NCBI GenBank assembly: GCA_963678675.1
Contig: OY783200.1
Span: 22,148,190 to 22,212,189, forward strand
DNA: 64,000 nt
Direction: 5' to 3'
DNA from: Xiphydria camelus
Lineage: Eukaryota; Arthropoda; Insecta; Hymenoptera; Xiphydriidae
The notes beneath the pieces were generated by a model. It did no database searches. It had not been told where the DNA came from and saw nothing but the letters and a program-made list of their open reading frames with translations. This document shows positions 3,088 to 53,410 of this stretch, piece after piece; the stretch's first letter is position 1; every line of letters begins with the position of its first letter. Both the position numbers and the translations under genes were made by a program.

Positions 3088-3581
3088 CGCGACTCTGTTT
3101 TATTTCTCAACTCATAATTGGTGTGTCTCGACGCTTTAACCACGGCGCGCGTGCGGAATATCTCCGAAGAGCCGCTCGAACAAATTGGAGAACGTTGGTA
3201 CACGCGTCTTCAGCTTCATTGGTGATGACGAACGGCGAGTTCGAATTGCATAGATAGAGAGACCTTTGTTTGGGTGGGGTTTCTTATTATTGTTATGCCG
3301 CTGCGATGACGTCTTTGACAGTGCTCGCGACACAACCACTGTCGACCACCGACTGATTGAAATGTGCACTTGCCTGCCGGGTCTCCACGTATGTGTTGAC
3401 ATAGGACGATATGGCACGTAGCGTTTTGTAGACTGTAGGCTATATGCTATTGGTCGGAGACGCAAGGACGACGAACGATTGGCTCTGTCTATCGCCGGCA
3501 GACGTCAATAGTCGCGAGAGAAGTTCCCTAGGGCGTAAAAACCTAGCAGACGAGAAAGTAGGGGTACCTCGGAATGAACTC
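3088..3581. other. Wsck 5' flank, no gene seen
   Basis: The stretch upstream of the Wsck start codon holds the 5' UTR and promoter, whose limits I cannot place. There is no convincing coding region. The next gene in this direction, Gemin5, is divergent. Confidence 0.5.
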
Positions 3582-3841
3582 TAAGGCCCGGTTCCACAAC
3601 TCGGGCTTAACTCTTAAACGGAGTTTAAATCATCCGTCCAACCAATGAGCGCCCGAGAATGAGGATTTAAACAGAGTTTATCTAGATAAGCCTGAATTGT
3701 GGAACTGGCCTTAAGGCCCTGGCCTAACTCAGGTTTAACTATAATCTCCGGTTAGTTGCTACGGAGTAGCCAATTGCAAAGCTGGTATCATAGCAACCAA
3801 CTAAGGATTATAGTTAAACCGGAGTTGTGGAATGGGCCTTA
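3582..3841. repeat. Pair of abutting inverted-repeat elements (MITE-like)
   Basis: Two units, about 3582-3713 and 3712-3841, each start with TAAGGCCC and end with GGCCTTA. Their ends are mirror images around an 'ACAACTCGGG' / 'GGAGTTGTGG' type block. A related fragment in the other orientation lies at about 29985-30095. No coding capacity, so probably non-autonomous DNA transposons. Confidence 0.7.
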
Positions 3842-3860
3842 TATGTATAGGAATGAAGGC

Positions 3861-3993
3861 TTAGGACCGGTTTTACCAATGCGGTATAAACGCGATATAG
3901 CGCTATACTGAGAATAACCAGCAATAAGCCTTATGGTTATTCACAGTATAGCGCTATACCGCGTTTATACCTGTTGATAAAACCGGCCCTTAA
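3861..3993. repeat. Palindromic MITE-like element
   Basis: The left end TTAGGACCGGTTTTACCAA is mirrored at the right end by TTGATAAAACCGGCCCTTAA. The inner GGTATAAACGCG and AGCGCTATAC blocks are also mirrored around a short centre. About 130 bp, non-coding. Confidence 0.75.
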
Positions 3994-4183
3994 GAAACAG
4001 AAAGACTTGATGCTAATAGTATGGTTGAAAAAAATTAATTCTAGGGATTGGAAAAGATCTTGCAGTGCGATTGGGTGATGAGGGAGGTTCGTGGAAGAAG
4101 GAATAATACGGAGGATATAAGAATATGAATAGGGACTTCCTTTCAACCTCTCTCCCCACACCCCATCTACTGAGCTCGATATT

Positions 4184-4322
4184 GGGTACTTTCCATTTAT
4201 GACACAAGTCGACAAACTTCTATTAGAACCACCAACTGACTGGCAGGCTCCAGCAGAAAGAACCAATGGTTTAATTTTGTGTCGACTTGTGTCGACTCGT
4301 GTCAGTTAAATGGAAAGCACCC
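4184..4322. repeat. Short terminal-inverted-repeat element
   Basis: GGGTACTTTCCATTTATGAC at the left is mirrored by GTCAGTTAAATGGAAAGCAC at the right, with ACACAAGTCGACA mirrored internally. About 139 bp and non-coding. Confidence 0.65.
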
Positions 4323-4800
4323 ATTAGGATCGAGTAGGAAATTGACGGGTAAGAATGCATTAAACGACATTGCCTTAAATTAATAAGCAATAGATTCTTT
4401 TATTGTCGTAATCTCATTACATTTGCAACAGTAAAATTGAATAAAATTCTCGAAACCATTAACTAATACAAAATTAACTTTATACGGAACGCTCAGGTAC
4501 GCCGCGGAAACAATCCGTGCGACTCTGACAGTTGGAGAGTTCGACTTCGAGCAGTATTCCGAAACAGACATCGGACTAACGGGTCAGAAACCACCAAATA
4601 ATAATGCATTCCTTTATTGCCATTTTCATTACATTCGTATTGCAATAGTACAGTTCAATTTATCCGTCATTCTCATTATCACTCTCAGCACATCCGTACG
4701 CATATAAGTGCAACGCAATAGAGCTCAATGAATAGCATCATCTCCAATTCATTTACAGCATATTCATCAAACAGTATCATTTCTCGTTCGTCCGTAACAC
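4323..4800 (+). repeat. Diverged extra copy of part of the giant palindrome arm
   Basis: This stretch aligns with 6594-7090 of the left palindrome arm in the same orientation. Shared words include TGACGGGTAAGAATRCATTAA, GAGTTCGACTTCGAGCAGTA and CACCAAATAATAATGCATTC. It is clearly more diverged than the two arms are from each other, so it is an older fragment of the same family outside the palindrome. Confidence 0.75.
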
Positions 4801-4845
4801 GTTCTTTTCAAATTATTTTCGTTACAATCACGCCAGTTCTAATAG

Positions 4846-5007
4846 CTTCTTTAAAAAATACGTTATTTCAAAACGTACTAACCAATGAACAATTAATTCT
4901 CATGCCCTCATTATCTACGGTGGCGTCTACTCTCGTTAATGAAAGCATGAAGATTATTAATCATTGGTTAGTACGTTTTGAAATAACATTTAAAAAAAGT
5001 CATCAGC
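4846..5007. repeat. Palindromic MITE next to the palindrome boundary
   Basis: TACGTTATTTCAAAACGTAC and ACTAACCAATGA at the left are mirrored by TCATTGGTTAGTACGTTTTG at the right. The element ends about 95 bp before the giant palindrome. The intron at 35930-36110 carries a diverged relative of the right end. Confidence 0.7.
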
Positions 5008-5193
5008 TACAGAATCCGTGAGCACGGGTGTACTTAGGTATATCAGCTATTTAAAATCTCCCCCCACCAACAACCCGTTGGAATAGTTTCTCGTTCTTGC
5101 GCAACCCCCTCCCCAGCGCCACTCTCAGAAAGATGGCCACGCGCGCGCCCGTCAGTCTGGTTGCGATCGCTGAGCGGAATGGTTCATTCTCCA

Positions 5194-5959
5194 CGCTCGC
5201 GCATTCTATCTCGGATTATGTGTTAACTACCTACCTACTTATCAATGCGCGGGTTCAGTGACATTCTCGTACCGTGGATTATTAGAAAAGTGAAATAATC
5301 CCGTGTGTCATTTTAATTACGGTTGACAAATGGAATATAATAGTTAATTCTGCATCTCGCACGTTTCAATCCGGAGTGTAGTGTAGTTACCTTCTCGTGC
5401 TGTCACCCGAATAAGCAAAGTAGTTTCATGCGCGTCAGTCTCGTTTCGGCCGTCGAGTGGAGTGGTTCATCTTTCGTACTCATCATCATTAGTTTGTGCG
5501 CGACTGTCAAATAGTGAACTCGCGTTATAATCATGTACTTTCATCCGTCTTAAATTTAATTTTATTATCTGTAGAACGCTCGCACGTTCAATCTCGGACT
5601 ATGTGTCAATACTCTCCAGTGCACGGGTTCAGTGACATTCTCGTGCCGTGGCTTATTGAGAAAGCGAAATAGTGCTGTGTGTTATTCTAATTACGGTCGA
5701 CTAATTAATCTCCGGTCTCGCACGTTTGAATAAATCCGGAGTGTAGTGTAGTTACCTTCTCGAGCTGTCGCCCGAATAAGCAAATTAGTTTCATGCGCGT
5801 CAGTCTGGTTTCGGCCATCGAGAGAGAGAGAGAGTGGAGTGATTTAAGTATCTTTCGTACTCGTCATCATTAGTTTGTGCGCGACTGTCAAATAGTGAAC
5901 TCGCGTTATAATCATGTACTTTCATCCGCCTTAAGTTTAATTTTATTATTTTTAGAAGT
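5194..5959 (+). repeat. 383-bp direct duplication in the left arm only
   Basis: The block starting CGCTCGCGCATTC at 5194 recurs from 5577, a period of 383 bp. Both copies contain CGGGTTCAGTGACATTCTCG, GTAGTGTAGTTACCTTCTCG and CATGTACTTTCATCCG. The right arm (about 19360-19770) has a single copy, which accounts for almost all of the coordinate shift between the outer and middle parts of the arms. Confidence 0.8.
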
Positions 5960-6054
5960 GCTCTTGTTGTCTCGGTGGTGTTTTCAGTATATTCAAATAT
6001 TTAATCAAACAAAAATATCTTCCCAAAGTGAAAAATAAATTGAAAATATCGATG

Positions 6055-6215
6055 CAAGGACCGGAGAATTAACTATTATATTCCATTTGTCGACCGTAAT
6101 TAGAATGACACACGAGATTATTTCACATTTCCAATAATCCACGGTACGAGAATGTCACCGAACCCGCGCACTGATAGGTAGTATTAACACATAATCTGAG
6201 CACAGGGACTTTGAC
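6055..6215 (-). repeat. Inverted copy of the terminal block inside the left arm
   Basis: The sequence here (AATTAACTATTATATTCCAT ... CACTGATAGGTAGT) is the reverse complement of about 5215-5365 of the same arm, so each arm contains a smaller inverted repeat. The mirror image in the right arm is at about 19125-19265. Confidence 0.7.
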
Positions 6216-7122
6216 AGAATGGTAACTGCTCGCGCTCAATCGTCTTCAAAGGTATGCAGGTTCACTGACCTCTTGTTGTCTTCTTCAAGCCACTGCTTAA
6301 AATGTACCGCGGCACGAGTTTCGTTTAAATTTTCACTCGAGTTATATACCATTGATTAAATTTTCACATTTCTATATGCAAGTAAATTATTGTATATCTG
6401 CCTTCTGCTGGCATAGCGGTGATTAGGTTGCACCTCCGAAAAGTATTTTAATTAGATTATAATTCGAATTGTGAAATGCGCAGATGTACGGCAGTTGGGT
6501 ACGGATTAAAGAAACAAAGTCCAAACATGACACGCCGATGGTTTTGGGCGATTGCTGGCCAGGAGAGGTCAGCTTCGAAAAGCTCTTTCACAGAGGATCG
6601 ACTAGGAGAGTGACGGGTAAGAATACATTAAACAACTTTGCCTTAAGTTAATAAGCAATATATTCCTTTATTATCGTATTTTCATTACATTTGCAACATT
6701 GAAATTGAATAACATTCTCGAAACCATTAACTAACTGAATTAACTTTATACGGAACGCCCGTGTAGGCCGCGGAACCAATCTGTCCAACTCTGCAAGTTG
6801 GAGAGTTCGACTTCGAGCAGTATTCCGCAAAATCGGACTGACGGGTGAGAAACCACCAAATAATAATGCATTCCTTCATTGCCACTCTCATTACATTCGT
6901 ATTGCAACAGTACAACATCCAATTCATCTGTCATTCTCATTGTCACTCTCAGCACATCCATACGCATATAAGTCCAACACAATACAACTCAACGAATAGC
7001 ATCATCTCCAATTCATTTATAGCACATTCCTTTATCTACCACCATTTTCATTACATTCATCAAAGAGTATCACTTCTCATTCAACCCTAACACATTCTTC
7101 TGACATTATTTTCGTTACAATC

Positions 7123-7371
7123 ATGCCCCAGTGCTGTTTAAGAGAATTCATCAGTCAGCATCATTCCAAGTTCTTCTATTGTTACTTCCATCACTTTCAT
7201 AGCAGTACCTATTTAATGGAACTTATTAAACACTCATCTACATGGTACGTTTGTATATTGTCATTCCCATTATACAATAGTAATGTTAAAGAGAATACAT
7301 CAAATTGCATCATCAACACTCCATTTCATCTGTTATTGTACATACGCTTGACAGTATTCCCTTTGAAATGA
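7123..7371 (+). other. 82-codon open frame, identical in both arms, probably non-coding
   Basis: The frame beginning MPQCC and ending FPLK is repeated without change on the minus strand at 17983-18231. It is rich in H, S, F and Y as expected of AT-rich repeat DNA, has no recognisable domain and lacks splice or promoter context. Its value is as a measure of arm identity: 249 identical bases. Confidence 0.4.
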
Positions 7372-7934
7372 ATGCAATGTAACAATAGTTGTCACAATAA
7401 TTACTCCAAGAAATATTAATCCATAAGAACATTCTATCCATCAATCATATCTAATAGAAGAGTCTCAGGTTTAATAATACCCGAAGTATTATTAATCTCT
7501 AAGAAAATTCTATCGGCCAATTCATTCCTAATAGAAAAGTCTCAGGTTTAATAATACCCGAAGTATTATTCTAATCTCTAAGAAAATTCTATATTCATCA
7601 GCCATCTGTAATAGATGATTCTTATGTTGAATAATTCTTAGTGTTATTAATGCGATAGAGACTATCAAACTGTAACACCTTCACTTGATCCATGATCCAT
7701 AGCACATTCATTTATTTTCCAACCACGTAGATGAATGCAATTCGATAGAATCAAATCAAATAACACATCACTCTCAGTTCCTTCACAGCACATCCCATCA
7801 CAAACCATTAATCTCATTACATGCATATTAGTTTCATGCAGTAGAACCCATTTTGAACTATCATCAATTTATCTATAGCACATTTATTCCCTATCATTGT
7901 CGTTATATCAAATCATTCGTAGCGCATTCATTCT

Positions 7935-9550
7935 ACACTTAAAATTCTATATAGTTTATTCATATATTCTTATTAAAATTCTATATAAGATTCTCTTATA
8001 TAGAATCCTATTATAAGACTATTATATAGTATCATATTATTAGATTCTTATATTATATAATCCTATTATTAGACTCTTATCAGATTCCTATACAGAATCC
8101 TATTATCAGATTCCTATTATCAGATTTCTATACAGATTCCTATTATCAGATTCCTATACAGAATCCTATTATCAGATTCCTATACAGATTCCTATTATAT
8201 AAGATTCCTATAATCAGATTTCTATACAGATTCCTATTATCAGATTTCTATTATCAGATTCCTATACAGAATCCTATACAGATTCCTATTATAAGATTCC
8301 TATACAGAATCCTATTATCAGATTCCTATACAGAATCCCATTATTAGATTTCCATACAGATTCCTATTATCAGATTCCTATACAGATTCCTATTATCAGA
8401 TTCCTATTATAAGATTCCTATTATCAGATTCCTATACAGATTCCTATTATAAGATTCCTATTATCAGATTTCTATACAGATTCCTATTATCAGATTCCTA
8501 TACAGAATCCCATTATTAGATTTCTATACAGATTCCTATTATCAGATATCTATACGGATTCCTATTATTAGATTTCTATACAGATTCCTATTATCATATT
8601 CCTATACAGAATCCCATTATTAGATTTCTATACCGATTCCTATCATCAGATTCCTGTACAGAATCCCATTATTAGATTTCTATTATCAGATTCCTATACG
8701 GATTCCTATTATTAGATTTCTATACAGATTCCTATTATTAGATTCCTATACAGAATCCCATTATTAGATTTCTATACCGATTCCTGTTATCAGATTCCTA
8801 TACAGAATCCCATTATTAGATTTCCATACCGATTCCTATTCTCAGATTTCTATACAGAATCCTATTATCAGATTTCTATACAGAATCCCATTATTAGATT
8901 TCTATACCGATTCTTATATTATATAGAGAATCCTATTGATAGTTTCTTATATTATATAGAATCCTACTAATAGTTTCTTATATTATATAGAATCCTACTA
9001 ATAGATTCTTATATTATATAGAATCCTACTAATAGATTCTTATATTATATAGAATCCTACTACTAGATTAGATTCTATATTATAGAATCCTATTATAAAA
9101 TTCTTATATAGAGTCCTATTATTAGATTCTTATTATAGAATTCTATTATAAAATTCTTATATGTATAGAATCCTATTATTAGATTATTAAGTAAAGTCCT
9201 ATTATCAGATCCTTTTATAGATTTATTATTAGATTCTTATTATAGAGTTCTATTATAAAACTTTTATAAGTATTGAATCCTATTAGATTCTTATATAGAG
9301 TCCTATAATAAGATTCTTCTAAGTATTGAATCCTATCAGATTCTTATATAGAGTCCTACAATAAGATTCTTATTATAGAATCCTATTATAAAATTCTTAT
9401 AAGTATAGAATCCTATTATTAAATTATTAAATAAAGTCCTATTATCAGATTCTTATTATAGAGTTCTATTATAAAATTTTTATAAGTATAGAATCCTATT
9501 ACCAGATTCTTTTATAGAGTTATTATTCAATTCTTATTATAGAATTCTAT
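7935..9550 (+). repeat. AT-rich satellite array, left arm
   Basis: Irregular tandem array of 12-14 bp modules such as GATTCCTATTATCA and GATTCCTATACA, giving a higher-order period near 26 bp. It grades outward into degenerate TATATAGAATCCTA modules. The mirrored array in the right arm is about 1 kb longer. Confidence 0.9.
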
Positions 9551-9930
9551 TATACACATACATCTTCATCTTTATTATACACTCTCTTTCACTTTCCTGT
9601 TTTGCATGGCTCCTATAGGCTATATAACAATACCTTTCCCGGCTCTACTTTCAGTACAGCTTCGACTCTCGTCTCGTAAGGATCGTTAAGAATAAGTTAT
9701 ATTCTTCTGTAGTAGCCCGTCGCATGTAGCAGTACTCTCTCTCTGTATTAAAATATCAAATACCTTTTCAAAAGTACCCACAGAATTTGAAGTGCGCAGA
9801 CGCGCAGCATTCTTGCGCAGGCTATAGGTATATAAGGACGATCCATCTAGACCATTCCCTCAGATTCCGTTCGACTGTCGATCAGTAACGATCTGTAAGA
9901 ATCGCACAATTTTATCCATTTTTAATATAC
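9551..9930 (+). promoter_or_regulatory. Promoter-like unique module between satellites, left arm
   Basis: Single-copy sequence between two arrays. It has TATATAAG at 9829-9836 and a CCTCAGATT initiator-like site with the A at 9862, at core-promoter spacing of about 33 bp, oriented toward the palindrome centre. No open reading frame follows; transcription would enter the 274-bp repeats. The assignment rests on motif and spacing only. Confidence 0.35.
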
Positions 9931-10239
9931 TGGCCACCAAGGATGCTCCTCAGGAAATTTACTTTCTTCTTATAGGCCTTGTATACCACTGCGGAATCGA
10001 CTCGATGATTTTTAAATAATTTCAACTTCCTTCCCAAAGTTCAAGTTCATCTCCTTCATTCCTAAGTAATTCTTCTAAAACCCCTACACACTTTCTATAT
10101 TCCTTATATGTCTTCTAAACCCTAATGCATCTTCAATACCCCGACAACTTCTTTTAAAGCACCAATATACCTTCCATCTTCCTAATACTTGATTGAAAGC
10201 TTAAATACGCCCTTCTCATCGGGAATCTAAACTCATTCT

Positions 10240-11680
10240 CGTCTTCCCTAGTTCATAGTTCAAACCCCTGACATACCTTCTGCATCCCTTATACGTTTTC
10301 TAAAACTCCAACATAATCCCTTCGACCCTAATACTTCTTTTAAATTATCAGTATATCCTCCTCATAGCTAGTACTTACTTTTAAAGCCCCAGCATACTTC
10401 TAACATCCCTTATATATCTTCTAAAGCCCCAACACAACTCCGATATCCCTTATATATCTTCTAAACCCCTAGCATACGCTTCGCATTCCTAATATTCCTC
10501 GTGAATCCCTAATATACACTCCACATCTCTAATACAAACCCCTGATACACCTTCTGCATCCCTTATACGTTTTGTAAAACTGCAGCGTAATCCCTTCAAC
10601 CCTAATACTTCTTTTAAATTATCAGTATATCCTCCTCATAGCTAGTACTTACTTTTAAAGCCCCAGCATACTTCTAACATCCCTTATATATCTTCTAAAG
10701 CCCCAACACAACTCCGATATCCCTTATATATCTTCTAAACCCCTAGCATACGCTTCGCATTCCTAATATTCCTCGTGAATCCCTAATATACGCTCCACAT
10801 CTCTAATACAAACCCCTGATACACCTTCTGCATCCCTTATACGTTTTGTAAAACTGCAGCGTAATCCCTTCAACCCTAATACTTCTTTTAAATTCCCAGT
10901 ACATCCTAATCATAGCTAGTACTTACTTTAAAGCCCCAGCATACTTCTAACATCCCTTATATATCTTCTAAACTTCCAGCACATTCTCCACACTCCTTCT
11001 AAAGCCTCAACACAACTCCGATATCCCTTATATATCTTCTAAACCCCTAGCATACCCTACGCATTCCTAATATTCCTCCTGAATCCCTAATATACCCTCC
11101 ACATCTCTAATACAAACCCCTGATACACCTTCTGCATCCCTTATACGTTTTGTAAAACTGCAGCGTAATCCCTTCAACCCTAATACTTCTTTTAAATTAT
11201 CAGTATATCCTCCTCATAGCTAGTACTTACTTTTAAAGCCCCAGCATACTTCTAACATCCCTTATATATCTTCTAAAGCCCCAACACAACTCCGATATCC
11301 CTTATATATCTTCTAAACCCCTAGCATACGCTTCGCATTCCTAATATTCCTCGTGAATCCCTAATATACGCTCCACATCTCTAATACAAACCCCTGATAC
11401 ACCTTCTGCATCCCTTATACGTTTTGTAAAACTGCAGCGTAATCCCTTCAACCCTAATACTTCTTTTAAATTATCAGTATATCCTCCTCATAGCTAGTAC
11501 TTACTTTTAAAGCCCCAGCATACTTCTAACATCCCTTATATATCTTCTAAAGCCCCAACACAACTCCGATATCCCTTATATATCTTCTAAACCCCTAGCA
11601 TACGCTTCGCATTCCTAATATTCCTCGTGAATCCCTAATATACGCTCCACATCTCTAATACAAACCCCTGATACACCTTC
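10240..11680 (+). repeat. 274-bp tandem repeat, left arm (about five units)
   Basis: The anchor AATACAAACC recurs at 10531, 10805, 11109, 11383 and 11657, giving periods of 274, 304, 274 and 274 bp. Units consist of pyrimidine-rich submodules such as CCCTTATATATCTTCTAAA, so the repeat has internal sub-repetition. The 304-bp variant unit carries an extra CTTCCAGCACATTCTCC segment. Confidence 0.9.
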
Positions 11681-13254
11681 TGCATTATGGGCGGGGCTAA
11701 TTCAATTTTAACGGTTTGTAGGCGGGGCTAACTGAATTATGGGCGGGGCTAATTCAATTTTAACGGTTTGTGGGCGGGGCTAATTCAATTTTAACGGTTT
11801 GTGGGCGGGGCTAATTGCATTGTGGGCGGGGCTAACTCAATTTTAACGGCTTGTGGGCGGGGCTAACTCAATTTTAACGGTTTGTGGGCGGGGCTAATTC
11901 AATTTTAACGGTATGTGGGCGGGGCTAATTGCATTGTGGGCGGGGCTAACTCAATTTTAACGGTTTGTGGGCGGGGCTAATTCAATTTCAACGGTTTGTG
12001 GGCGGGGCTAATTCAATTTTAACGGTTTGTGGGCGGGGCTAACTGAATTATGGGCGGGGCTAATTCAATTTTAACGGTTTGTGGGCGGGGCTAACTGAAT
12101 TATGGGCGGGGCTAACTGAATTGTGGGCGGGGCTAATTCAATTTTAACGGTTTGTGGGCGGGGCTAATTGCATTGTGGGCGGGGCTAACTCAATTTTAAC
12201 GGTTTGTGGGCGGGGCTAATTCAATTTTAACGGTTTGTGGGCGGGGCTAACTGAATTATGGGCGGGGCTAATTCAATTTTAACGGTTTGTGGGCGGGGCT
12301 AACTGTATTGTGGGCGGGGCTAACTGAATTGTGGGCGGGGCTAATTCAATTTTAACGGTTTGTGGGCGGGGCTAATTGCATTGTGGGCGGGGCTAATTCA
12401 ATTTTAACGGTTTGTGGGCGGGGCTAATTCAATTTTAACGGTTTGTGGGCGGGGCTAATTGCATTGTGGGCGGGGCTAACTGAATTGTGGGCGGGGCTAA
12501 CTGAATTGTGGGCGGGGCTAATTCAATTTTAACGGTTTGTGGGCGGGGCTAATTGCATTGTGGGCGGGGCTAACTCAATTTTAACGGTTTGTGGGCGGGG
12601 CTAATTCAATTTTAACGGTCTGTGGGCGGGGCTAAAATTGAATTAGCCCCGCCCATAATTCAGTTAGCCCCGCCCACAAACCGTTAAAATTGAATTAGCC
12701 CCGCCCACAAACCGTTAAAATTGAGTTAGCCCCGCCCACAATTCAATTAGCCCCGCCCACAAACCGTTAAAATTGAGTTAGCCCCGCCCACAATGCAATT
12801 AGCCCCGCCCACAAACCGTTAAAATTGAATTAGCCCCGCCCACAAACCGTTAAAATTGAGTTAGCCCCGCCCACAATGCAATTAGCCCCGCCCACAAACC
12901 GTTAAAATTGAATTAGCCCCGCCCACAAACCGTTAAAATTGAGTTAGCCCCGCCCATAATTCAGTTAGCCCCGCCCACAAACCGTTAAAATTGAATTAGC
13001 CCCGCCCACAAACCGTTAAAATTGAATTAGCCCCGCCCACAATTCAGTTAGCCCCGCCCACAATTCAGTTAGCCCCGCCCACAAACCGTTAAAATTGAGT
13101 TAGCCCCGCCCACAAGCCGTTAAAATTGAGTTAGCCCCGCCCACAATGCAATTAGCCCCGCCCACAAACCGTTAAAATTGAATTAGCCCCGCCCATAATT
13201 CAGTTAGCCCCGCCTACAAACCGTTAAAATTGAATTAGCCCCGCCCATAATGCA
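11681..13254. repeat. GC-box minisatellite at the palindrome centre
   Basis: Dozens of tandem units beginning TGGGCGGGGCTAA, in a long (31 bp, with TTTTAACGG) and a short (about 21-22 bp, AACTGAATT or TTGCATTG) version. Each holds a GGGCGGGGC box of the Sp1/KLF type. Units are in + orientation up to about 12635 and inverted from about 12643, so the palindrome axis lies near 12639. The left array (954 bp) is longer than the right one (about 610 bp), but the two outer edges are exact mirrors. Confidence 0.95.
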
Positions 13255-14130
13255 GAAGGTGTATCAGGGGTTTGTATTAGAGATGTGGAGCGTATATTAG
13301 GGATTCACGAGGAATATTAGGAATGCGAAGCGTATGCTAGGGGTTTAGAAGATATATAAGGGATATCGGAGTTGTGTTGGGGCTTTAGAAGATATATAAG
13401 GGATGTTAGAAGTATGCTGGGGCTTTAAAAGTAAGTACTAGCTATGAGGAGGATATACTGATAATTTAAAAGAAGTATTAGGGTTGAAGGGATTACGCTG
13501 CAGTTTTACAAAACGTATAAGGGATGCAGAAGGTGTATCAGGGGTTTGTATTAGAGATGTGGAGGGTATATTAGGGATTCAGGAGGAATATTAGGAATGC
13601 GAAGGGTATGCTAGGGGTTTAGAAGATATATAAGGGATATCGGAGTTGTGTTGAGGCTTTAGAAGGAGTGTGGAGAATGTGCTGGAAGTTTAGAAGATAT
13701 ATAAGGGATGTTAGAAGTATGCTGGGGCTTTAAAGTAAGTACTAGCTATGATTAGGATGTACTGGGAATTTAAAAGAAGTATTAGGGTTGAAGGGATTAC
13801 GCTGCAGTTTTACAAAACGTATAAGGGATGCAGAAGGTGTATCAGGGGTTTGTATTAGAGATGTGGAGTGTATATTAGGGATTCACGAGGAATATTAGGA
13901 ATGCGAAGCGTATGCTAGGGGTTTAGAAGATATATAAGGGATATCGGAGTTGTGTTGGGGCTTTAGAAGATATATAAGGGATGTTAGAAGTATGCTGGGG
14001 CTTTAAAAGTAAGTACTAGCTATGAGGAGGATATACTGATAATTTAAAAGAAGTATTAGGGTCGAAGGGATTATGTTGGAGTTTTAGAAAACGTATAAGG
14101 GATGCAGAAGGTATGTCAGGGGTTTGAACT
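13255..14130 (-). repeat. 274-bp tandem repeat, right arm (about three units)
   Basis: Reverse complement of the left-arm array. The anchor GTGTATCAGGGG recurs at 13259, 13533 and 13837, periods 274 and 304 bp. The same 304-bp variant unit is present, but two of the 274-bp units found in the left arm are missing, a difference of about 548 bp. Confidence 0.9.
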
Positions 14131-14449
14131 ATGAACTAGGGAAGACGAGAATGAGTTTAGATTCCCGATGAGAAGGGCGTATTTAAGCTTTCAATCAAGT
14201 ATTAGGAAGATGGAAGGTATATTGGTGCTTTAAAAGAAGTTGTCGGGGTATTGAAGATGCATTAGGGTTTAGAAGACATATAAGGAATATAGAAAGTGTG
14301 TAGGGGTTTTAGAAGAATTACTTAGGAATGAAGGAGATGAACTTGAACTTTGGGAAGGAAGTTGAAATTATTTAAAAATCATCGAGTCGATTCTGCAGTG
14401 GTATACAAGGCCTATAAGAAGAAAGTAAATTTCCTGAGGAGCATCCTTG

Positions 14450-14834
14450 GTGGCCAGTATATTAAAAATGGATAAAATTGTGCGATTCTTACAGATCGTT
14501 ACTGATCGACAGTCGAACGGAATCTGAGGGAATGGTCTAGATGGATCGTCCTTATATACCTATAGCCTGCGCAAGAATGCTGCGCGTCTGCGCACTTCAA
14601 ATTCTGTGGGTACTTTTGAAAAGGTATTTGATATTTTAATACAGAGAGAGAGTACTGCTACATGCGACGGGCTACTACAGAAGAATATAACTTATTCTTA
14701 ACGATCCTTACGAGACGAGAGTCGAAGCTGTACTGAAAGTAGAGCCGGGAAAGGTATTGTTATATAGCCTATAGGAGCCATGCAAAACAGGAAAGTGAAA
14801 GAGAGTGTATAATAAAGATGAAGATGTATGTGTA
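14450..14834 (-). promoter_or_regulatory. Promoter-like unique module, right arm
   Basis: Mirror image of 9551-9930, with CTTATATA (TATA box on the minus strand) at about 14551-14558 and AATCTGAGGG as the initiator-like site. It points to the palindrome centre, so the two modules are convergent. Same caveats as for the left copy. Confidence 0.35.
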
Positions 14835-17400
14835 TAATAGAATTCTATAATAAGAATCTAATAATAACTCTATAAAAGAATCTGATAATAGGATTCTATA
14901 CTTATAAGAATTTTATAATAGGATTCTATAATAAGAATCTTATTGTAGCACTCTATATATGAATCTAATAGGGTTCAACACTTATAAAAATTTTATAATA
15001 GAATTCTATAATAAGAATCTTATAGTAGGACTCTATATAAGAATCTAATAGGATTCAATACTAATAAAAATTGTATAATAGAACTCTATAATAAGAATCT
15101 GATAATAGGACTTTATTTAATAATTTAATAATAGGATTCTATACTTATAAGAATTTTATAATAGGATTCTATAATAAGAATCTTATTGTAGGACTCTATA
15201 TAAGAATCTGATAGGATTCAATACTTAGAAGAATCTTATTATAGGACTTTTATAATAGGATTTTATAATAGGAGTAGGACTCTATATAAGAATTTTATAA
15301 TAGGATTCTATAATACAGAACCTAATCTATTAGTAGGATTCTATATAATATAAGAATCTATTAGTAGGATTCTATATAATATAAAAATCTATTAGTAGGA
15401 TTCTATACAATATAAGAAACTATTAGTAGGATTCTATATAATATAAGAAACTATTAGTAGGATTCTATATAATATAAGAAACTATTAATAGGATTCTATA
15501 TAATATAAGAGAATCGGTATAGAAATCTAATAACGGGATTCTGTATAGGAATCTGATAATAGGAATCGGTATAGAAATCTAATACTGGGATTCTGTATAG
15601 GAATCTGATTATAGGAATCTGTATAGAAATCTAATAATGGGATTCTGTATAGAAATCTGATAATAGGATTCTGTGTAGGAATCTATATAGAAATCTAATA
15701 ATGGGATTCTGTATAGAAATCTGATAATAGGATTCTGTATAGGAATCTGATAATAGGAATCGGTATAGAAATCTAATAATGGGATTCTGTATATGAATCT
15801 GATAATAGGATTCTGTATAGGAATCTGATAATAGGAATCGGTATAGAAATCTAATAATGGGATTCTGTATATGAATCTGATAATAGGAATCGGTATAGAA
15901 ATCTAATAATGGGATTCTGTATAGGAATCTGATAATAGGAATCTGTATAGAAATCTGATAATGGGATTCTGTATAGAAATCTGATAATAGGATTCTGTAT
16001 AGGAACCTGATAATAGGAATCGGTATAGAAATCTAATAATGGGATTCTGTATAGGAATCTGATAATAGGAATCTGTATAGAAATCTAATAATAGGAATCC
16101 GTATAGGAATCTGATAATAGAAATCTAATAATGGGGGATTCTGTACAGGAATTTGATAATAGGAATCGGTATAGAAGTCTAATAATGGGATTCTGTATAG
16201 GAATCTGATAATAGGAATCTGTATAGAAATTTGATAATAGGAATCTGTATAGATATCTGATAATAGGAATCTGTATAGAAATCTAATAATGGGATTCTGT
16301 ATAGGAATCTGATAATAGGAATCTGTATGGAAATCTAATAATGGGATTCTGTATAGAAATTTGATAATAGAATTCTGTATAGGAATCTGATAATAGGAAT
16401 CGGTATAGAAATCTAATAATGGGATTCTGTATAGGAATCTGATAATAGGAATCTGTATAGAAATCTAGTAATGGGATTCTGTATAGAAATCTGATTATAG
16501 GAATCTCTGTATAGAAATCTAATGATGGGATTCTGTATAGAAATCTGATAATAGGATTCTGTATAAGAATATGATAATAGGAATCGGTATAGAAATCTAA
16601 TGATGGGATTCTGTATAGGAATCTGATAATAGGAATCGGTATAGAAATCTAATAATGGGATTCTGTATAGGAATCTGATAATAGGAATCTGTATAGAAAT
16701 CTAATAATAGGAATCCGTATAGGAATCTGATAATAGAAATCTAATAATGGGGGATTCTGTACAGGAATTTGATAATAGGAATCGGTATAGAAATCTAATA
16801 ATGGGATTCTGTCTAGGAATCTGATAATAGGAATCTGTATAGAAATTTGATAATAGGAATCTGTATAGATATCTGATAATAGGAATCTGTATAGAAATCT
16901 AATAATGGGATTCTGTATAGGAATCTGATAATAGGAATCTGTATAGAAATCTGATAATAGGATTCTGTATAGGAATCTGATAATAGGAACCTGATAATAG
17001 GAATCTGATAATAGCAATCTGTATAGAAATCTGATTATAGGAATCTGTATAGAAATCTGATTATAGGAATCTTATATAATAGGAATCTGTATAGGAATCT
17101 GATAATAGGATTGTGTATAGGAATCTGATAATAGGAATCTGTATAGAAATCTGATAATAGGAATCTGTATAGAAATCTGATAATAGGAATCTGATAATAG
17201 GATTCTGTATAGGAATCTTATAGTAGGAATCTGTATAGGAATCTGATAATAGGAATCTGATAATAGGAATCTGATAAAAGTCTAATAATAGGATTATATA
17301 ATATAAGAATCTAATAATATGATACTCTCTATATAATAGTTTTATAATAGGATTCTATATAAGAATCTTATATAGAATTTTAATAAGAATATATGAATAA
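14835..17400 (-). repeat. AT-rich satellite array, right arm
   Basis: Reverse complement of the left-arm satellite, with modules such as GGAATCTGATAATA and GGAATCTGTATAGA. At about 2.56 kb against 1.6 kb it is the most expanded block. Long open frames on the minus strand here are repeat translations (repeating YYQIP/RFLYR) and not genes. Confidence 0.9.
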
Positions 17401-19860
17401 ACTATATAGAATCTTAAGTGTAGAATGAATGCGCTAGGAATGATTTGATATAACGACAATGATAGGGAATAAATGTGCTATAGATAAATTGATGATAGCT
17501 CAAAATGGGTTCTACTGCATGAAACTAATATGCATGTAATGAGATTAATAGTTTGTGATGGGATGTGCTGTGAAGGAACTGAGAGTGATGTGTTATTTGA
17601 TTTGATTCTATCGAATTGAATTCATCTACATGGTTGGAAAATGAATGAATGTGCTATGGATCATGGATCAAGTGAAGGTGTTACAGTTTGATAGTCTATC
17701 GCATTAACAACACTAAGAATTATTAAACATAAGAATCATCTATTACAGATGGCTGATAAATATAGAATTTTCTTAGGGATTATAATAATACTTCGGGTAT
17801 TATTAAACCTGAGACTTTTCTATTAGGAATGAATTGGCCGATAGAATTTTCTTAGAGATTAATAATACTTCGGGTATTATTAAACCTGAGACTCTTCTAT
17901 TAGATATGATTGATGGATAGAATCTTCTTATGGATTAATAATTCTTGGAGTAATTATTGTGACAACTATTGTTACATTGCATTCATTTCAAAGGGAATAC
18001 TGTCAAGCGTATGTACAATAACAGATGAAATGGAGTGTTGATGATGCAATTTGATGTATTCTCTTTAACATTACTATTGTATAATGGGAATGACAATATA
18101 CAAACGTACCATGTAGATGAGTGTTTAATAAGTTCCATTAAATAGGTACTGCTATGAAAGTGATGGAAGTAACAATAGAAGAACTTGGAATGATGCTGAC
18201 TGATGAATTCTCTTAAACAGCACTGGGGCATGATTGTAACGAAAATAATGTCAGAAGAATGTGTTAGGGTTGAATGAGAAGTGATACTCTTTGATGAATG
18301 TAATGAAAATGGTGGTAGATAAAGGAATGTGCTATAAATGAATTGGAGATGATGCTATTCGTTGAGTTGTATGGATGTGCTGAGAGTGACAATGAGAATG
18401 ACAGATGAATTGGATGTTGTACTGTTGCAATACGAATGTAATGAGAGTGGCAATGAAGGAATGCATTATTATTTGGTGGTTTCTCACCCGTCAGTCCGAT
18501 TTGCGGAATACTGCTCGAAGTCGAACTCTCCAACTTGCAGAGTTGGACAGATTGGTTCCACGGCCTACAGGGGCGTTCCGGATAAAGTTAATTGAGTTAG
18601 TTAATGGTTTCCAGAATGTTATTCAATTTCAATGTTGCAAATGTAATGAAAATACGATAATAAAGGAATATATTGCTTATTAACTTAAGACAAAGTTGTT
18701 TAATGTATTCTTACCCGTCACTCTCCTAGTCGATCCTCTGCGAAAGAGCCTTTCGAAGCTGACCTCTCCTGGCCAGCAATCGCCCAAAACCATCAGCGTA
18801 TCATGTTTGGACTTTGTTTCTTTAATCCGTACCGAACTGCCGTACATCTGCGCATTTCACAATTCGAATTATAATCTAATTAAAATACTTTTCGGAGATG
18901 CAACCTAATTACCGCTATGCCGACGGAAGGCAGATATACAATAATTTACTTGCATATAGAAAAATGTGAAAATTTAATCAGTGGTATAAGTCGAGTGAAA
19001 AGTTAAACGAAACTCGTGCCACCATACATTAGCAGTGGCTTGAAGAAGATACGAGGTCAGTGAACCTGCATACCTTTGAAGACGATTGAGCGCGAGCAGT
19101 TAACATCCTGTCAAAGTCCCTGTGCTCGGATTATGTGTTAATACTACTTATCAGTGCGCGGGTTCGGTGACATTCTCGTACCGTGGATTATTGGAAAAGT
19201 GAAATAATCTCGTGTGTCATTCTAATTACGGTCGACAAATGGAATATAATAGTTAATTCTCCGGTCCTTGCATCGATATTTTCAATTTATTTTTCACTTT
19301 GGGAAGATATTTTTATTTGATTAAATATTTGAATGTACTGAAAACACCACCGAGACAACAAGAGCACTTCTAAAAATAATAAAATTAAACTTAAGGCGGA
19401 TGAAAGTACCTGATTATAACGCGTTCACTATTTGACAGTCGCGCACAAACTAATGGTGGCGAGTACGAAAGATACTTAAATCACTCCACTCTCTCTCTCG
19501 ACGGCCGAAACGAGACTGACGCGCATGAAACTACTTTGCTTATTCGGGTGACAGCACGAGAAGGTAACTACACTACACTCCGGATTGAAACGTGAGAGAT
19601 GGAGAATTAACTATTATATTCCATTTGTCGACCGTAATTAGAATGACACACGGGATTATTTCACTTCTCCAATAATCCACGGTCCGAGAATGTCGCTGAA
19701 CCCGCGCACTGATAGGTAGGTAGTTAACACATAATCCGAGATAGAACGCGCGAGCGTGGAGAACAAACCATTCCGCTCAGCGATCCCAACCAGACTGGCG
19801 GGCGCGCGCCACCCGTGGCCATCTTGCTGACAAGTGAAAAAGGCACTGGGGAGGGGGTTG

Positions 19861-20173
19861 ACGTTTCCACACGTTTCTACATATTTACGAATTCTGTAAA
19901 TCGGTCAATAATCTTCACATACTGCGCTGAAGGACGTAAAGAGTAAGGTAATTATTTTCTTTTGAATAATTAAAAGAAACTAGTTTTCTATGGTGAGAAA
20001 GACACCGTAATTACTCCAGTTTATTCTCAGGGCGCGTGTTCACTTTGGCACTAAACCGCCGGTTAACCTCTGAACCGGCTTATGACAGTTCTGTACTAAT
20101 TACGTCGGCATGTGAAGAGAGACTTCACAGAATCCCTTAATATTATATGTTTCTTTCACTTTCAGAAAGAGCC
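19861..20173 (+). promoter_or_regulatory. Gemin5 5' flank and UTR, directly abutting the palindrome
   Basis: Only 313 bp separate the palindrome end from the Gemin5 start codon. A clear splice acceptor TTTCTTTCACTTTCAG ends at 20165, eight bases before the ATG, so a non-coding first exon must lie upstream, here or within the palindrome end. CCGGTTAACC and AACCGG form a small inverted repeat near 20058-20080. No TATA box is evident. Confidence 0.5.
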
Positions 20174-23100
20174 ATGAACGAAGTGACATTACCACCGTCG
20201 CCAAATTGGTATTTAAGCCGTGTTTTGGCTTGTGCCAATGATGGTACGATCGCCTGGGGTGCTAGAAACGTCATAGTAATCGCGAGACCTGGCAGAGAGG
20301 ACAAAATCCTGAAATACTCCATCATCGCAAATGCTCACACAGACAGGGTGACCTCGCTGGCTTTTTCTCCCGAATTTGGAAAGGAGAAAAAGAATTTGCT
20401 TGTCTCGGGAGGAGACGAACATGTCGTCAGAATATGGAACTTGGATGACAATAGTGCCGTCATGGCTCACTCTTATTCGGACGTAATTAATTCAACTTCT
20501 CTGACAAACATTCGAGTCCATAATCGCTTTGACAATTTACCATTTGCTTTAGTTTTGACGTCTAAACCCATTTTGTCAGTCTGAATCGCTTAAGAGAGAG
20601 TGACTTATATCGTATCACCACCTAAATCACATCAGAACTGATATTTCATGATACCATCATTTGAATCGTTCAACAGTTAATTTTTTTATAAAAAAATTAG
20701 TACTCTGCTATTTCTCTTTCATGAAACATCAATGGTAGTATGATTTAGGTGGTGATATAATATAGCTATTACATTGTTTATATCTACGCAAAAATGGCCT
20801 TCCCCTCTCTTCAAGGTGAAGCAAAAAGTCATCGGAGTCGACTGGTCCAACAGTGACCCCAACCTGGTCTGTTGCGTCAGTTCGGAAGGTTCTCTCATCT
20901 CGTGGAATGTAGCTTACAACATCGCTCAATCGATTTCCTTGGGAAAATTAACTGCCACTTGTATTTCCTGCTGCCCCCACGATTCGAACCTTGTAGCAAT
21001 CGGGACAAAGAGTGGCCTGGTATTTATCGTAGACATGAAGGGCTCAGGAACGATCACGTATAAATTGCGAGGACACGACGTAGAAATAGCCAGTCTTTCT
21101 TGGTGCCCGGTTGATGTCAATGTATTGAGCGGTAATGGCGCTAAAGATCTGCTCCTGGCTTCGGGCGGGAAAGATAGGTGAATATGACGCGATAAGCTAA
21201 TCGTTGCGTCCCTAATTTCCCTCGTAAAATCCCTTTAAATACCGAACAGTTGTGATGCTTGAATTGTACAGGCCTCCCTGGATGATTTCGACATTTATTC
21301 TTCAATTACAGATCAATATTCATATGGAAGGCAGGCGGAGATGGTCGTTACCAAACCGAAATCACGCTTCCGAGCAATCCCGTCGACTCGAATCAGCACA
21401 GAAGTAAATTAGGCGTATCCGCGGGAGGGTGGACCGCGCTGTGTTGGGTCGCTCCGAAACTTTTGCTGGCCAGCTCTTCCTGGGGCGAGCTCATCTCGTG
21501 GGACTTGTCGTTCGCGTCGAAGAAGAAACACCCTTGCAAATTAATTCACGCTTGCCATTTGCGAGGCTTGTTTTGCATCGCCAGCGTTCCCTACGAGCAA
21601 CCTGCGGATCATGAAAACTGGAGATCCAAAAGCCAAAGCGAGTAAGCGACCTGCCCGATTCGCGTGTTCGAATTCAAACGTTATTGCACGCGATATACAT
21701 CGAAAGACGTTCTTCACAGCATAACAGTTTGGACTCTGGCGCAAGATCGGCAAGTGGTTTGCTGCAGGATAACTGAATCGGGACCCAAGGTGGAGTACAG
21801 TATACCGACGCAAGGAGGGTACGTGTACTGCGTGGCGGCGTGTCCTTTGGACACTTCCCGAATCGCTTATGGTGTCGGAGATGCGATGATACGATTGTGG
21901 AACTTGTGCGAACCGCACGAAAGTACCTTCGACATCACCACGCTCTGGCAGAAGATAAAGGGGAATGTGAGGGCGGTGAGTAACCGTATACTTTCGAAAA
22001 TTAAGGGGGCGGCTCGCGAGAAATATTCGAGTTGCAACCGAACGAACGCGACGTACTTTTACACCTCTATAAAGTAATCGCGTCTACAGATCTCCTGGCA
22101 TCCCGAGAAAGAAAACTGGCTGGCTTTCGGTACCGGCGAAGGTCGCGTTGGCGTGTTCGATACGAACGCGAACAAACCACCGATTCTGTACAGACAGTAT
22201 CATCGGCATAACGTTTATTCCATCGGGTGGGGCCCGTCGCCAAAAAGCACTGGCAAAGTCTTATTGTACTCCTGCGGTGACGGCGAGCTAGTCTATTATG
22301 ATCCGGAAAAGCCAACCCAAGGTATAACATTCATGGGGCGTAAGGTGTCGTTTTCCCTGCAAAAGATTCTCATCCTAAGTCTATCCAAACGAGTTAATAA
22401 AGATTCCGTTGCCACATCTCTATAACTATAAGTATAGTATATAGATAGTTATTATCTTTATATTCGAATACAAATCAACGCAAAACCTTAGTCGGGGTCC
22501 GAAATATAACGGCAAGCATATTTTTCGCGCAGACCCGAAACCCGTCATCAAGAAGGAATGTACGGAATTCGCTTGGAAGCCGGATTTTACGTGCATGGCA
22601 CTGGGCTTCGAGAACGGGTTAGTTTGAAACGCGCTAGAATTCGCGAGAGTCTCGAATTCGTAGGAACAATGGTATCGTCAACTTAATCTTGCAGGTCGAT
22701 ATCGTTCGTAACTAGTGACCTATCGGAATGCGGTCGCCCTATCCACTCGCTGAAAAAAGCAATTCAATGCCTCGCTTGGCATCCGGAGAGTACGGCAACG
22801 GATCTGAGCCTGTCTCCTTTGCGAAATTACTTGGCCGTTTCCATTAACGCGTCTACGATCACGATCTTCGATATGTCGGGCCTGATAAATAGCTTGGGGC
22901 AACCGAAAAATACCGACGGTTCGGAGGAATCCACTCCGAACGATGTAAATACCAAAACAGATGAACCGCCGCTTCATCGGGTAGTCGCGACGTTGAGCGG
23001 ACATACGGGAAAGATCTTGAGCTTAGCTTGGAGTCCGCATATCAGTGGATATTTAGTCTCCGGTAGTTACGACAACACTGCAAAGGTGCGTGTCTGATTA

Positions 23101-46184: not shown

Positions 46185-47194
46185 CTACGTTTTCTTCTTT
46201 CTCCGGTGAACGACCGAGTGCCTCGTCAAGTGATACTCGAGATTGAACCTCCTGTCGCAAACCTCGCAGCGAAACCGTCCCGTCTTCTTCTGCCGCTCGT
46301 GAATGACCGCGTGCCTCCTCAGATCGTCCTCGCCGGCGAAGGGCTTGCGACAGACGTCGCACCGAATCCCTCCATCCCCGTGTTCCTCGTCGCTCGCGAG
46401 CTTGCGACAAGAGCCACCCGACACGTGGCTGTCGTAATCCTCGCGCAGCTCGAACGTCGCCGAACAGACGTCGCAGCGGAGCGTCTCCCGCGCGAAGTGC
46501 GTCGCCACGTGCTCCTCCAGGCTCGCCTTCACGCGGAAGGTTTCCCGACAGATATCGCAATCGTACGCGATCTCCGGACAACCCGGCTCGCTCCCCGTCG
46601 TCGGCTCCTCTCGCGTAAACGTCTCCTCGCCGACTCCGTTAGCCCGAAGCTCCTTCCCGAACCTCACGCCGTGAACCGCGCGCATGTGCTTCTTCAGCGT
46701 GATGTCGTAGCTGTAAGAATTCGTGCAGAGCCGGCACTTGAAAGTCTTCTTCTCACCGTGAACGGCCATGTGCACATCCAGATTCCCCTTTCGACTGAAC
46801 GCCTTCCGGCAAATATCGCACGAGTACGGCCGCTCCGTGGAGTGCGTGAGCAGGTGCGACTTGAGCGTGTGCTTCTTGAAGAACTCCCTCTGGCACGAGT
46901 CGCAGCGGAACGGCTTGCGGCACGAGTTGCGTATCATGTGACTGTCGCGTTTCTTCTCGTACATGAAGTTCGCGAAGCACACGTCGCACTGGAAGGGCCT
47001 GTCGACGTGGCGCTTGTGCGCGAGCTCGTGCTTCAGCAGCGAGCACTTTTGATAGTAGCCCTTCTGGCAGACGCTGCACTGGAAGGGCTTCGTCTCGGGG
47101 TGCAGCAACATGTGGCGCCGCAGGCTGATAGTCGTGGGGAACAGCTTCGCGCAAACGTGGCACTTCTCGCCCTCGCCTTCCGGCGGGTCGCGCT

Positions 47195-47229
<35 letters not shown>

Positions 47230-50200
47230 TTCTTTCGCGGCGGTTTCCGCTTCACGTGGAGCGGCGCGTGGCGCAGCAGGTCGCTCTCCAGCAGAAACCG
47301 CTTGGCGCAGACGTCGCAGCGAAAGGGCCCGACGTTCTTCTCCGCCTCGTGGACGAGCATGTGCTTCTGGTAGTTCGTCTCGAGCGAGTACTCCTTCTGG
47401 CAGAAGTCGCAGTGAAACAGCTTCGGGAAGGCGTGACGCTCCGCGTGGCGCAGCAGGCTCTCCTGCTCGGGAAACTGCTCGAGGCACACCTCGCAGCGGA
47501 AGGGCTTGTCGCGGCTCTCCGTCTGGTGGAGGAGCTCGTGCTCCAGTAGGCTGCGCTTCGCGTAGAATCCCTTGCGGCAGATCGCGCACTCGAACCGTTT
47601 GTTCTCGCTGTGGATGAGCATGTGCTCGAGCAGATCGTCTCTGAGGAAGAATCGCTTGAGACAGACGTCGCAATGGTGCGGCTCCTTGCCGCGGTGGATG
47701 CGGCGCTTGTGCCGCACCATGTTGCGGCGTATGGGAAACTGCTTCAGGCAGACGTCGCACTGGAACGGCTTGCCCTCCTGCTCGTGGGCGCGCAAGTGCC
47801 GGAGGAGATTCGTCCTCTGGTAGTACGCCCGCTGGCAGAGCTTGCAACGGTACCGTTTCGTGTGACGCGGCAGGTGCAGCGCCAGGCGCTCCTTCGTGGG
47901 AAAGCACCTCTTGCAGACGTCGCACTTGAACGGCTTGACGTGGGTTTGCTCGTGGGCGTTCAGCGAGAATTCGGAGTAAAATTGCTTGGGACAGGTGCGG
48001 CAGCAGAACTCCTTCTCGCCGACGTGGAAGAGTACGTGGCGCTCGAGGCTGGCTTTCACGGCGTACTGCTTCTGGCAGAAGTCGCAGACGAACACCTTCT
48101 TCGGAGGGGATGCGCCTTTTGCTTTCTTGCGACGAGGAGCGTCGCGTTTCCGAGGGACGTCGCGTTTCCGAAGAGCGCGCTTCGCGCGACGCTTCTTCCG
48201 CGGTGATTTCTTCGCGGTGTGCGTCGACGCGTGGCGCTGAAGATCGCTCTCCTGAGAAAATCTCTCCGAGCAAACGTCGCACTGCAACGTCTCGTCGACC
48301 GACCCTCTCTCTTCGGTATCCTCGTCTCCCAATGAATCGTCGTGCTCGCCGTCGTCCCTCGGAAGCGATTCCTCCTCGTCATCGTTCTCCGGAAGTGAGT
48401 CGTTCCCGGTCTTCTCCGCCTCGTGCGTGCGTAAATGCTTTCGAAAATTGTTCTTACCTTCGTACTCCTCGCGACAAATGCTGTCTTCGTTCTCCCGTTT
48501 GTGCGTGAGCTCGTGCTTCAGCAGATTGCGCTTCGTGTAGAAGCCCTTCCGGCAAACGCCGCACTCGAAGCGCTTCTTCTCGCTGTGCAGCAGTTTGTGC
48601 CGCAGCATCTCCAACTTTCGCGGGAACCTTATCGAGCACACGTCGCAGGTGAACGACGTCTTCGCTCGTGCGCGAACGTTTGCCTCGCTCACCTCGCCGC
48701 CTTCGTGGGTGACCAAGTGCTTCACGAAATCGTCCTTGCAGTGGAAGGGCTTGAGGGTGCAGTGAATGAGGATGTGATTCTCGAAGGAGAGAACCTCGTT
48801 GAAGTGGATTCCGCAGAACTTGCAGCGGAGCTTGTCGCCGGGAGGAAGCGGTTCGGCTTCCGCGTGAATTTCCGTGTGACCGTTCGAGTGTGTCGCGTGG
48901 GAAAAGGATTCTTGCGTTTCGCGAGTAGCCGTGCGGTTCTCGAGGGACGACGCTTCGTCGTTCGAATCGTCAACGCGGATCGACTCCTCCTCCCCGCGAG
49001 CTCTCGAACGACCGTCGCCATCGTTTTCCCGCTCCCCCGCGTGAACGAGCGCGTGCTGCAGCAGACCGTCCTCTTCGGAGAACCGCTGCAGGCAAACGTC
49101 GCACGCGAACGGCATCAGGTTCGCGTGCCCGAACATGTGCCTCCTGTAATCATCCTGGACTCTGAATTTTTCCAGGCAAACGTTACACTCGATAAACCGC
49201 TCTTGCGAGTGGGACAACAGATGCTTCTCAAAGGCGTCCCTCTTCTTGTAGCGCGTGTGGCATACGTCGCAGCAAAACGGTCGGTCTCCGAACATGTGTG
49301 TTATCATGTGCCACGCGATGTGCTCCTTCCGCTTGAAGCGCTTCCCGCAGAAGTCGCAGATGAAACTCTCCGTGGCGCTCGCCCGATGCTCGACCAGACT
49401 GTGATCGTCGGGGTACGTCGCGCAGGAGAAGAGCTCCGCGGCCTCGTTCCTCGAACCGATCGCACGAATTCCCGAGCCGCCCTTCCCGGGCGATCCGGGC
49501 GTCCTGTGCGTCAGCAAATGACTGTTGTACGCGTATTTGTACCGAAACTGCTCGTGGCAATGGTAGCAGCGGTACTTCGTCGAGCGCGGCGTACCGGCAT
49601 ACGTCGCGACGCTCGATTTGAACGCCTCCTCGCTCCTCGTTTGGTCGCAGCACTCGTCGCAGCGGATGAGCTGCTCCGACAACGAGTCGCTCCTCTGCCG
49701 TTCCTTGGGAAAGAAAAGCCTGTCGCAGGAGCCGCACTCGAGCAGCACGGGGGCCGCGTGAGCGGCGTGGTGATCCAGGAGGTCGCGCTGGTCGGTGAAT
49801 GTCTCTTGGCACGCCGTGCAGACGAAGGGCTTGTGATCGACCTTGTGCCTCTCGAAGATCGCCTCGTTCTCAAAGCGGATATTGCAGACCATGCAGTAGA
49901 ATCTCTCCACCAGGTGGACGTTCGTGTGCGCTTCCAGGCTCTCCTTCGCTTTGAACCTCTTGCGGCAGACGCGGCAGGACAGCGGATACTCGGTGGCGTG
50001 TATCGACATGTGGTTGACGAAGCGCAGTTTCTGTTGGAAGGTTTTCTCACAGATGTTGCACTGCAGGAAATTCCAAGTGTGACTGTCCTTCGCCTTTTGG
50101 TCCGGCGAAGCATCCTCGAGGGAAACTGGAACGATCGGAACGGAATTCCCTAAAGTGTGAGGCGAGAGCTCAACGAAGGAGCACCACCGATCGGACGGTT

Positions 50201-50534: not shown

Positions 50535-50551
50535 AATTTCCGCGGACGTTT

Positions 50552-50880: not shown

Positions 50881-50899
50881 ATAAGCGGCGTCGCTCGAG

Positions 50900-53255: not shown

Positions 53256-53377
53256 AGAGTTTGACCTATTTCCGCGCAGGTACATTTTCACAGGGGTAGT
53301 TCACCACACCGCGCCACGGCTCTTTTCCCGTAACAAGGCTTTCCGTCCTCGCAATGTCGCGCGTATACCGCGTTAGC

Positions 53378-53379
<2 letters not shown>

Positions 53380-53410
<31 letters not shown>
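53380..53410 (+). repeat. Poly-T tract (31 T)
   Basis: Uninterrupted run of 31 T. The duplicated position at 63446-63466 has 21 T. Confidence 0.95.

Follow-up and report, generated by a model that had tools for sequence, protein, structure and literature searches.

A 14.8-kb gene-free palindrome of mirrored repeat arrays, foldback-like in its anatomy, between two divergent genes of Xiphydria camelus

The window, that is, the whole stretch of 64,000 nt of Xiphydria camelus DNA that was analysed and to which all positions refer, contains a gene-free palindrome of 14.8 kb in the spacer separating two animal genes. An earlier note on this DNA had described these genes as divergent, which agrees with a start codon at 3087 on the minus strand and another at 20174 on the plus strand. 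A DENN gene, a RING gene, and two C2H2 zinc-finger genes also lie in the window, where no Rfam match reached the gathering score. The features of the locus are the following:

ATG 3087, minus strand: left neighbour, with fn3 above the Pfam cut-off and a WSC-like match below the cut-off
4326..4840, plus strand: diverged copy of arm block 6594-7135, outside the palindrome
5102..12635, plus strand: left arm, 7,534 bp (BLAST and global alignment)
5102..5116, plus strand: left 15-bp terminal motif CAACCCCCTCCCCAG, no mismatch
5102..6230, plus strand: left outer flanking domain, no short tandem array, direct repeats spaced 365-381
6594..7135, plus strand: arm block with a diverged copy in the left flank
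7984..9554, plus strand: left AT-rich arrays (26/52/78 bp, then 31 + ~80 bp)
9555..11679, plus strand: block near-identical in both arms (2 mismatches in 1,577 columns), with the 274/304-bp array from 10261
9829..9894, plus strand: core-promoter-like site (TATATAAG / TCAGAT / CGATCT) pointing to the axis, by sequence match only
11689..12635, plus strand: left 21/31-bp GGGCGGGGCTAA array, 36 units, the last one cut
12636..12642, no strand: spacer at the axis, 7 nt, centre 12639
12636..13255, minus strand: right 21/31-bp array, 23 units
12643..19860, minus strand: right arm, inverted copy of the left, 7,218 bp (BLAST and global alignment)
14493..14558, minus strand: mirror copy of the core-promoter-like site, also pointing to the axis and likewise a match in sequence alone
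14833..17416, minus strand: right AT-rich arrays, longer than the left
19846..19860, minus strand: right 15-bp terminal motif CAACCCCCTCCCCAG, no mismatch
ATG 20174, plus strand: right neighbour, a Gemin5-like gene

The palindrome is real. Self-comparison by BLAST returned long minus-strand pieces (E = 0.0) in which the two arms are colinear and inverted, and a global alignment of 5102-12639 with the reverse complement of 12640-19860 gave 6,005 identities in 6,219 ungapped columns (96.6%), hence 214 substitutions, together with 14 gaps of at least 15 bp, 22-407 bp in size. The axis sits within a unit of the 21/31-bp GC-box array, where GGGCGGGGCTAA (12624-12635), 7 nt (12636-12642), and TTAGCCCCGCCC (12643-12654) form a 12-bp inverted repeat; the DNA fold of 12560-12720 has a z of -16.25, and none of 200 shuffles was equally stable. 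Colinear arms mirrored around 12639 with essentially no loop, as claimed earlier, are thus what the alignments and the 7-nt spacer display. At the outer boundaries, the 15-bp end motif has exact copies in the window only at the two ends, a third site having three mismatches, and directly inside these ends the arms differ by indels of 7 and 5 bp. One has to keep in mind that 15 identical end bases are unremarkable given an identity of about 95%, and that sharp ends alone are not decisive, since an edge of similarity exists in any inverted duplication.

Each arm is a mosaic, about 55% of which is tandem array. From the outside, the order is the 15-bp end, the outer domain, a block of degenerate repeats, and the 77-bp repeat, followed inwards by the AT-rich 26/52/78-bp and 31/80-bp arrays, a block without short arrays, the 274/304-bp array, and the 21/31-bp array that reaches the axis, the 31-bp unit being the 21-bp unit plus 10 bp. 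The earlier note had counted four repeat classes in fixed order; the mirrored order holds, and the number becomes five (77 bp; 26/52/78 bp; 31 + ~80 bp; 274/304 bp; 21/31 bp). Within the outer domain of the left arm, where these features were sought, an inverted repeat (5235-5351/6065-6181) is 93% complementary, and a subterminal motif at 5151 recurs at 5434 (8/35 mismatches) and weakly at 5799 (14/35). The array motif also turns up in two papers whose titles are unrelated.

None of the 25 ORFs of at least 150 aa listed in the window overlaps the palindrome, whose longest ATG ORF is 92 aa. A search of the left arm for Pfam domains in all six frames, stops being read as X, yielded none above the cut-off, the three weak matches (E 0.018, 0.063, and 0.071) each falling below their own cut-off; the absence of genes, including any mobility gene, noted earlier is therefore sustained by the left-arm scan and the ORF list. 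At 6484, a 55-codon frame resembling an exon was considered and rejected: the arms differ there by five replacement codons and one silent codon, so that the frame looks unconstrained.

The arms are unequal in content and in divergence. Two 274-bp units and 369 bp of the outer domain are present on the left alone, the AT-rich arrays are longer in the right arm, and the central array counts 36 units on the left versus 23 on the right, with an order that starts alike from the outer edge (ABAACDE / ABACDE) and then diverges. Arm identity is 94.6% at 5102-5454, 97.5% at 5824-6230, 94.9% at 6231-6593, 98.8% at 6594-7130, 100% at 7131-7412, 97.4% at 7593-7983, 99.9% at 9555-11410, 100% at 11411-11679, and 97.5% in the central array at 11680-12635 (15/606 mismatches); mismatches number 4/180 at 7413-7592, 43/931 at 7984-8916, and 87/631 at 8917-9554. 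Identity is strongly heterogeneous over nine blocks (chi-square 86.8, 8 df), a test from which 5455-5823 (mostly left arm only), 7413-7592, 7984-8916, 8917-9554, and 11680-12635 were excluded because array alignments are unreliable there; the outer blocks hold 63 mismatches in 2,294 columns, as against 2 in 1,577 for the inner ones. Partial conversion between the arms would be the simplest cause of such patchiness.

The flanks had been called unrelated. This stands for the right flank (19861-20173) and the near left flank (4841-5101), whose similarity is not above that of shuffles; it fails for 4326-4840, a diverged copy of 6594-7135 in the same orientation (87.6% over 442 columns by BLAST), which lies 262 bp from the left end of the palindrome and is without the ends of the element. 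Over 483 columns, the fragment differs from the left arm at 56 and from the right arm at 60, the arms differing from each other at 6; at these six sites, the fragment agrees with the left arm four times, with the right arm never, and with neither twice. Judging from these columns, the fragment predates the time at which the arms parted in this block, or at which they last underwent conversion. Its presence shows that sequence of the arms has existed apart from the palindrome; a dispersed family and a local duplication are not told apart by the fragment, since it lies so near. Small inverted-repeat elements flank the fragment on its left (about 4187-4322, by eye) and on its right (4862-4987). 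Arm-sequence patterns had no match in phages, viral contigs (three patterns), or prokaryote genome contigs (two patterns), non-animal collections that are uninformative on the host.

As to a target-site duplication, perfect matches reach no more than 6 bp when each end is given 12 bp of slack, and with movable ends there is neither a perfect match of at least 7 bp nor one of at least 8 bp with one mismatch, while random boundary pairs gave perfect matches of at least 7 bp in 11 of 300 cases. The earlier statement that no clear target duplication is visible is, thus, confirmed.

In the available excerpts of the papers cited here, four families of foldback elements offer the closest structural comparisons. 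Tetris of Drosophila virilis has long inverted repeats made of an outer flanking, a tandem-repeat, and an inner domain, no ORF, a variable array copy number, and a part of the outer domain that recurs inside (PMC4079207); its arms reach at most 1,735 bp and its target duplications 8-10 bp, whereas here the arms measure 7.2-7.5 kb and such a duplication was not found, the likeness being one of structure. FB of Drosophila melanogaster combines inverted ends with blocks of short tandem repeats and vestiges of a 31-bp repeat in mid-element, and takes part in inversions through ectopic recombination; it differs in its ends of 467-479 bp and middle region of 321-322 bp (PMC7642927), and the agreement of its 31-bp unit with the 21/31-bp units here, compared by length alone, may be a coincidence. 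Galileo, of the P superfamily, has long, internally repetitive terminal inverted repeats (TIRs) with unequal repeat numbers; its chimeric copies have non-matching flanking 7-mers, and copies at inversion breakpoints are marked by exchanged duplications, but its longest TIRs are about 1.26 kb, and transposase-coding relatives and 7-bp target duplications are known for it (PMC3573991, PMC2775673). Tm1 (Mutator/Foldback) of root-knot nematodes has composite TIRs that vary in length, contain short tandem repeats, and average 93.15% identity within one element; 8-10-bp target duplications accompany 45 of 53 complete elements, unlike the palindrome here, and one copy is without its duplication (PMC3169594). 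In the literature on ants, bees, and wasps, no foldback element appeared by title among the 20 matches listed of 52; an ant supergene paper has the word “foldback” once, within its reference list.

We consider the chances about even that the palindrome is, or descends from, a non-autonomous, foldback-like DNA transposon. This reading draws on the domain order and tiny loop, which fit the plan of Tetris, FB, Galileo, and Tm1; on 15-bp ends that are identical despite the adjacent 7- and 5-bp indels; on arms that are about 55% tandem array with no Pfam domain above the cut-off; on array copy numbers that are unequal between arms, as in Galileo; on the strongly patchy identity; and on the presence of an older, related fragment outside the palindrome. 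Of what defines foldback elements, the long inverted repeats are internally repetitive, and the loop is small with no transposase of its own in the scanned left arm, as in non-autonomous copies, but the constant-length target-site duplication, 7-10 bp in the compared families, is absent. As the duplication was looked for and not found, we say that the palindrome “works like” a foldback element and do not file it as one. Further points count against the reading: no complete second copy is known, and the sole related fragment in the window is near and end-less, which suits a local duplication too; the arms are about four times the longest among the foldback families compared (the 1,735 bp of Tetris); and identity does not rise steadily toward the centre, the innermost array standing at 97.5%. 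The missing duplication does not exclude a transposon, since copies of Galileo and Tm1 without matching duplications are described in the excerpts cited.

Such an element would once have been moved by a transposase made elsewhere and would have landed between the two divergent genes. It may then have enlarged as slippage or unequal exchange added and removed array units in each arm on its own, while conversion from arm to arm would have kept parts near-identical, above all 9555-11679. Its target-site duplication may have been lost by decay or by ectopic recombination with another copy, on the pattern of Galileo and FB.

The main rival explanation, a local inverted duplication in which an intergenic stretch rich in repeats gave rise to its own mirror-image copy, is a serious possibility, though one we hold only tentatively. 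For example, a nascent strand could have folded back in a 21/31-bp unit near a break, a second switch rejoining the chromosome and later array turnover making the arms unequal. The axis argues for such a route, lying inside an array unit where 7 nt separate the halves of a 12-bp inverted repeat, much like yeast foldback-priming sites, for which PMC10622511 describes 11-bp repeats with a 6-bp spacer; an axis at a short inverted repeat is, however, expected of foldback elements too. The copy of an arm block just beyond the left end, in the same orientation, and the lack of a target-site duplication also speak in its favour. On the other hand, the yeast duplications, as described there, reach the chromosome end via a dicentric intermediate, so that an internal, repeat-made palindrome needs a second event; moreover, no single-copy or coding sequence was found in the arms, and the fragment is far older (56/483) than the split of the arms in that block (6/483). 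The macro-dyads of Tribolium madens are another insect case of kilobase inverted tandem arrays with no sizeable loop, but in the excerpt of PMC13081366 they belong to megabase satellite regions near centromeres with one satellite per dyad, and here a five-class mosaic lies between genes. The interpretation of the earlier note, which left the choice between a non-autonomous foldback transposon and a local inverted duplication open, is partly supported: the foldback anatomy is there, and the target-site duplication is not.

A hairpin-RNA locus, which could be added to either origin, would have the promoters of both arms transcribe through the axis, the resulting long dsRNA feeding the siRNA pathway; we regard it as improbable. 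At 9829, TATATAAG is followed by TCAGAT (5/6) and a DPE-like CGATCT (5/6), a trio which, like its copy at 14558 on the minus strand, gives matches to the TATA, Inr, and DPE consensus sequences. The two sites face the axis, the most identical part of the arms falls between them, and TATA + Inr + DPE triples averaged 0.1 in 20 runs of Markov-1 sequences of the window, with match thresholds chosen after the site had been seen. Polyadenylation signals in 9862-14460 number none on the plus strand and one on the minus strand, for a Markov-2 expectation of 9.6; 15 of 298 overlapping window stretches of equal length are also without any, and the lack falls short of significance when only non-redundant sequence is counted (1 observed, 2.59 expected). 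Substitutions between the arms show no preference for G-U either (G-U 63 versus A-C 66; 22 versus 31 outside the AT arrays). A hairpin-RNA function is, thus, possible but unsupported, and we think it equally improbable that a foldback-like element has turned into a self-complementary transcription unit, in which identical facing promoters would give axis-crossing transcripts and kilobase dsRNA, with inner arms homogenised to 99.9%. We also considered and rejected a solo LTR at this promoter-like site, as none of eight TG...CA pairs with 4-6-bp repeats is prominent.

An assembly or sequencing artefact, i.e., an incorrect join or one molecule read twice because its hairpin adapter was missed, does give palindromes with almost no loop, but 214 substitutions and 14 gaps between the arms, together with two different gene-bearing flanks, make it very unlikely here.

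Long inverted repeats as such are not new: Drosophila hairpins of more than 15 kb are mentioned in the excerpt of PMC13081366. If the palindrome is a foldback element, its arms, about four times the longest in the families compared from the excerpts cited, would show how far arrays can grow in mobile DNA and how palindromes of this kind persist through replication. Should it instead be an inverted duplication, it would offer a sequence-resolved case of an internal kilobase palindrome. With either origin, the blocks of 99.9% identity set against those of about 95% make exchange from arm to arm measurable.

A tandem segmental duplication in the window holds a pair of minus-strand genes whose C2H2 zinc-finger domains were identified by Pfam. 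Its 2.4-kb matching pieces are 93-94% identical as DNA when compared within the window, and the gap between the two pieces measures about 0.3 kb in the first unit versus about 3.5 kb in the second. The tRNA-Ser (cga) that ARAGORN calls within both gene copies are probably false positives within duplicated coding sequence.

Zinc-finger duplication and ARAGORN calls
46185-50009 and 54874-56919, minus strand: C2H2 zinc-finger loci (Pfam)
48834-51208 / 55753-58114: first pair of matching pieces
51491-53944 / 61571-64000: second pair of matching pieces
48892-48981 and 55811-55900: tRNA-Ser (cga) calls

Small inverted-repeat elements are densely packed at 3580-5000, in the left flank of the palindrome.

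Small inverted-repeat elements of the left flank
3860-3994 and 4862-4987: examples
about 4187-4322: seen by eye

Within the palindrome, the 274/304-bp tandem-repeat array, mirrored in the two arms, shows a strong strand bias: its GC skew is about -0.62 to -0.67 in the left-arm copy (10200-11400) and changes sign in the right-arm copy (13400-14200), to about +0.58 to +0.70. Beyond the right end, the ATG of the Gemin5-like gene lies at a distance of 313 bp (interval 19861-20174) and is immediately preceded by TTTCAG; an upstream 5' UTR exon may, therefore, start close to the palindrome.
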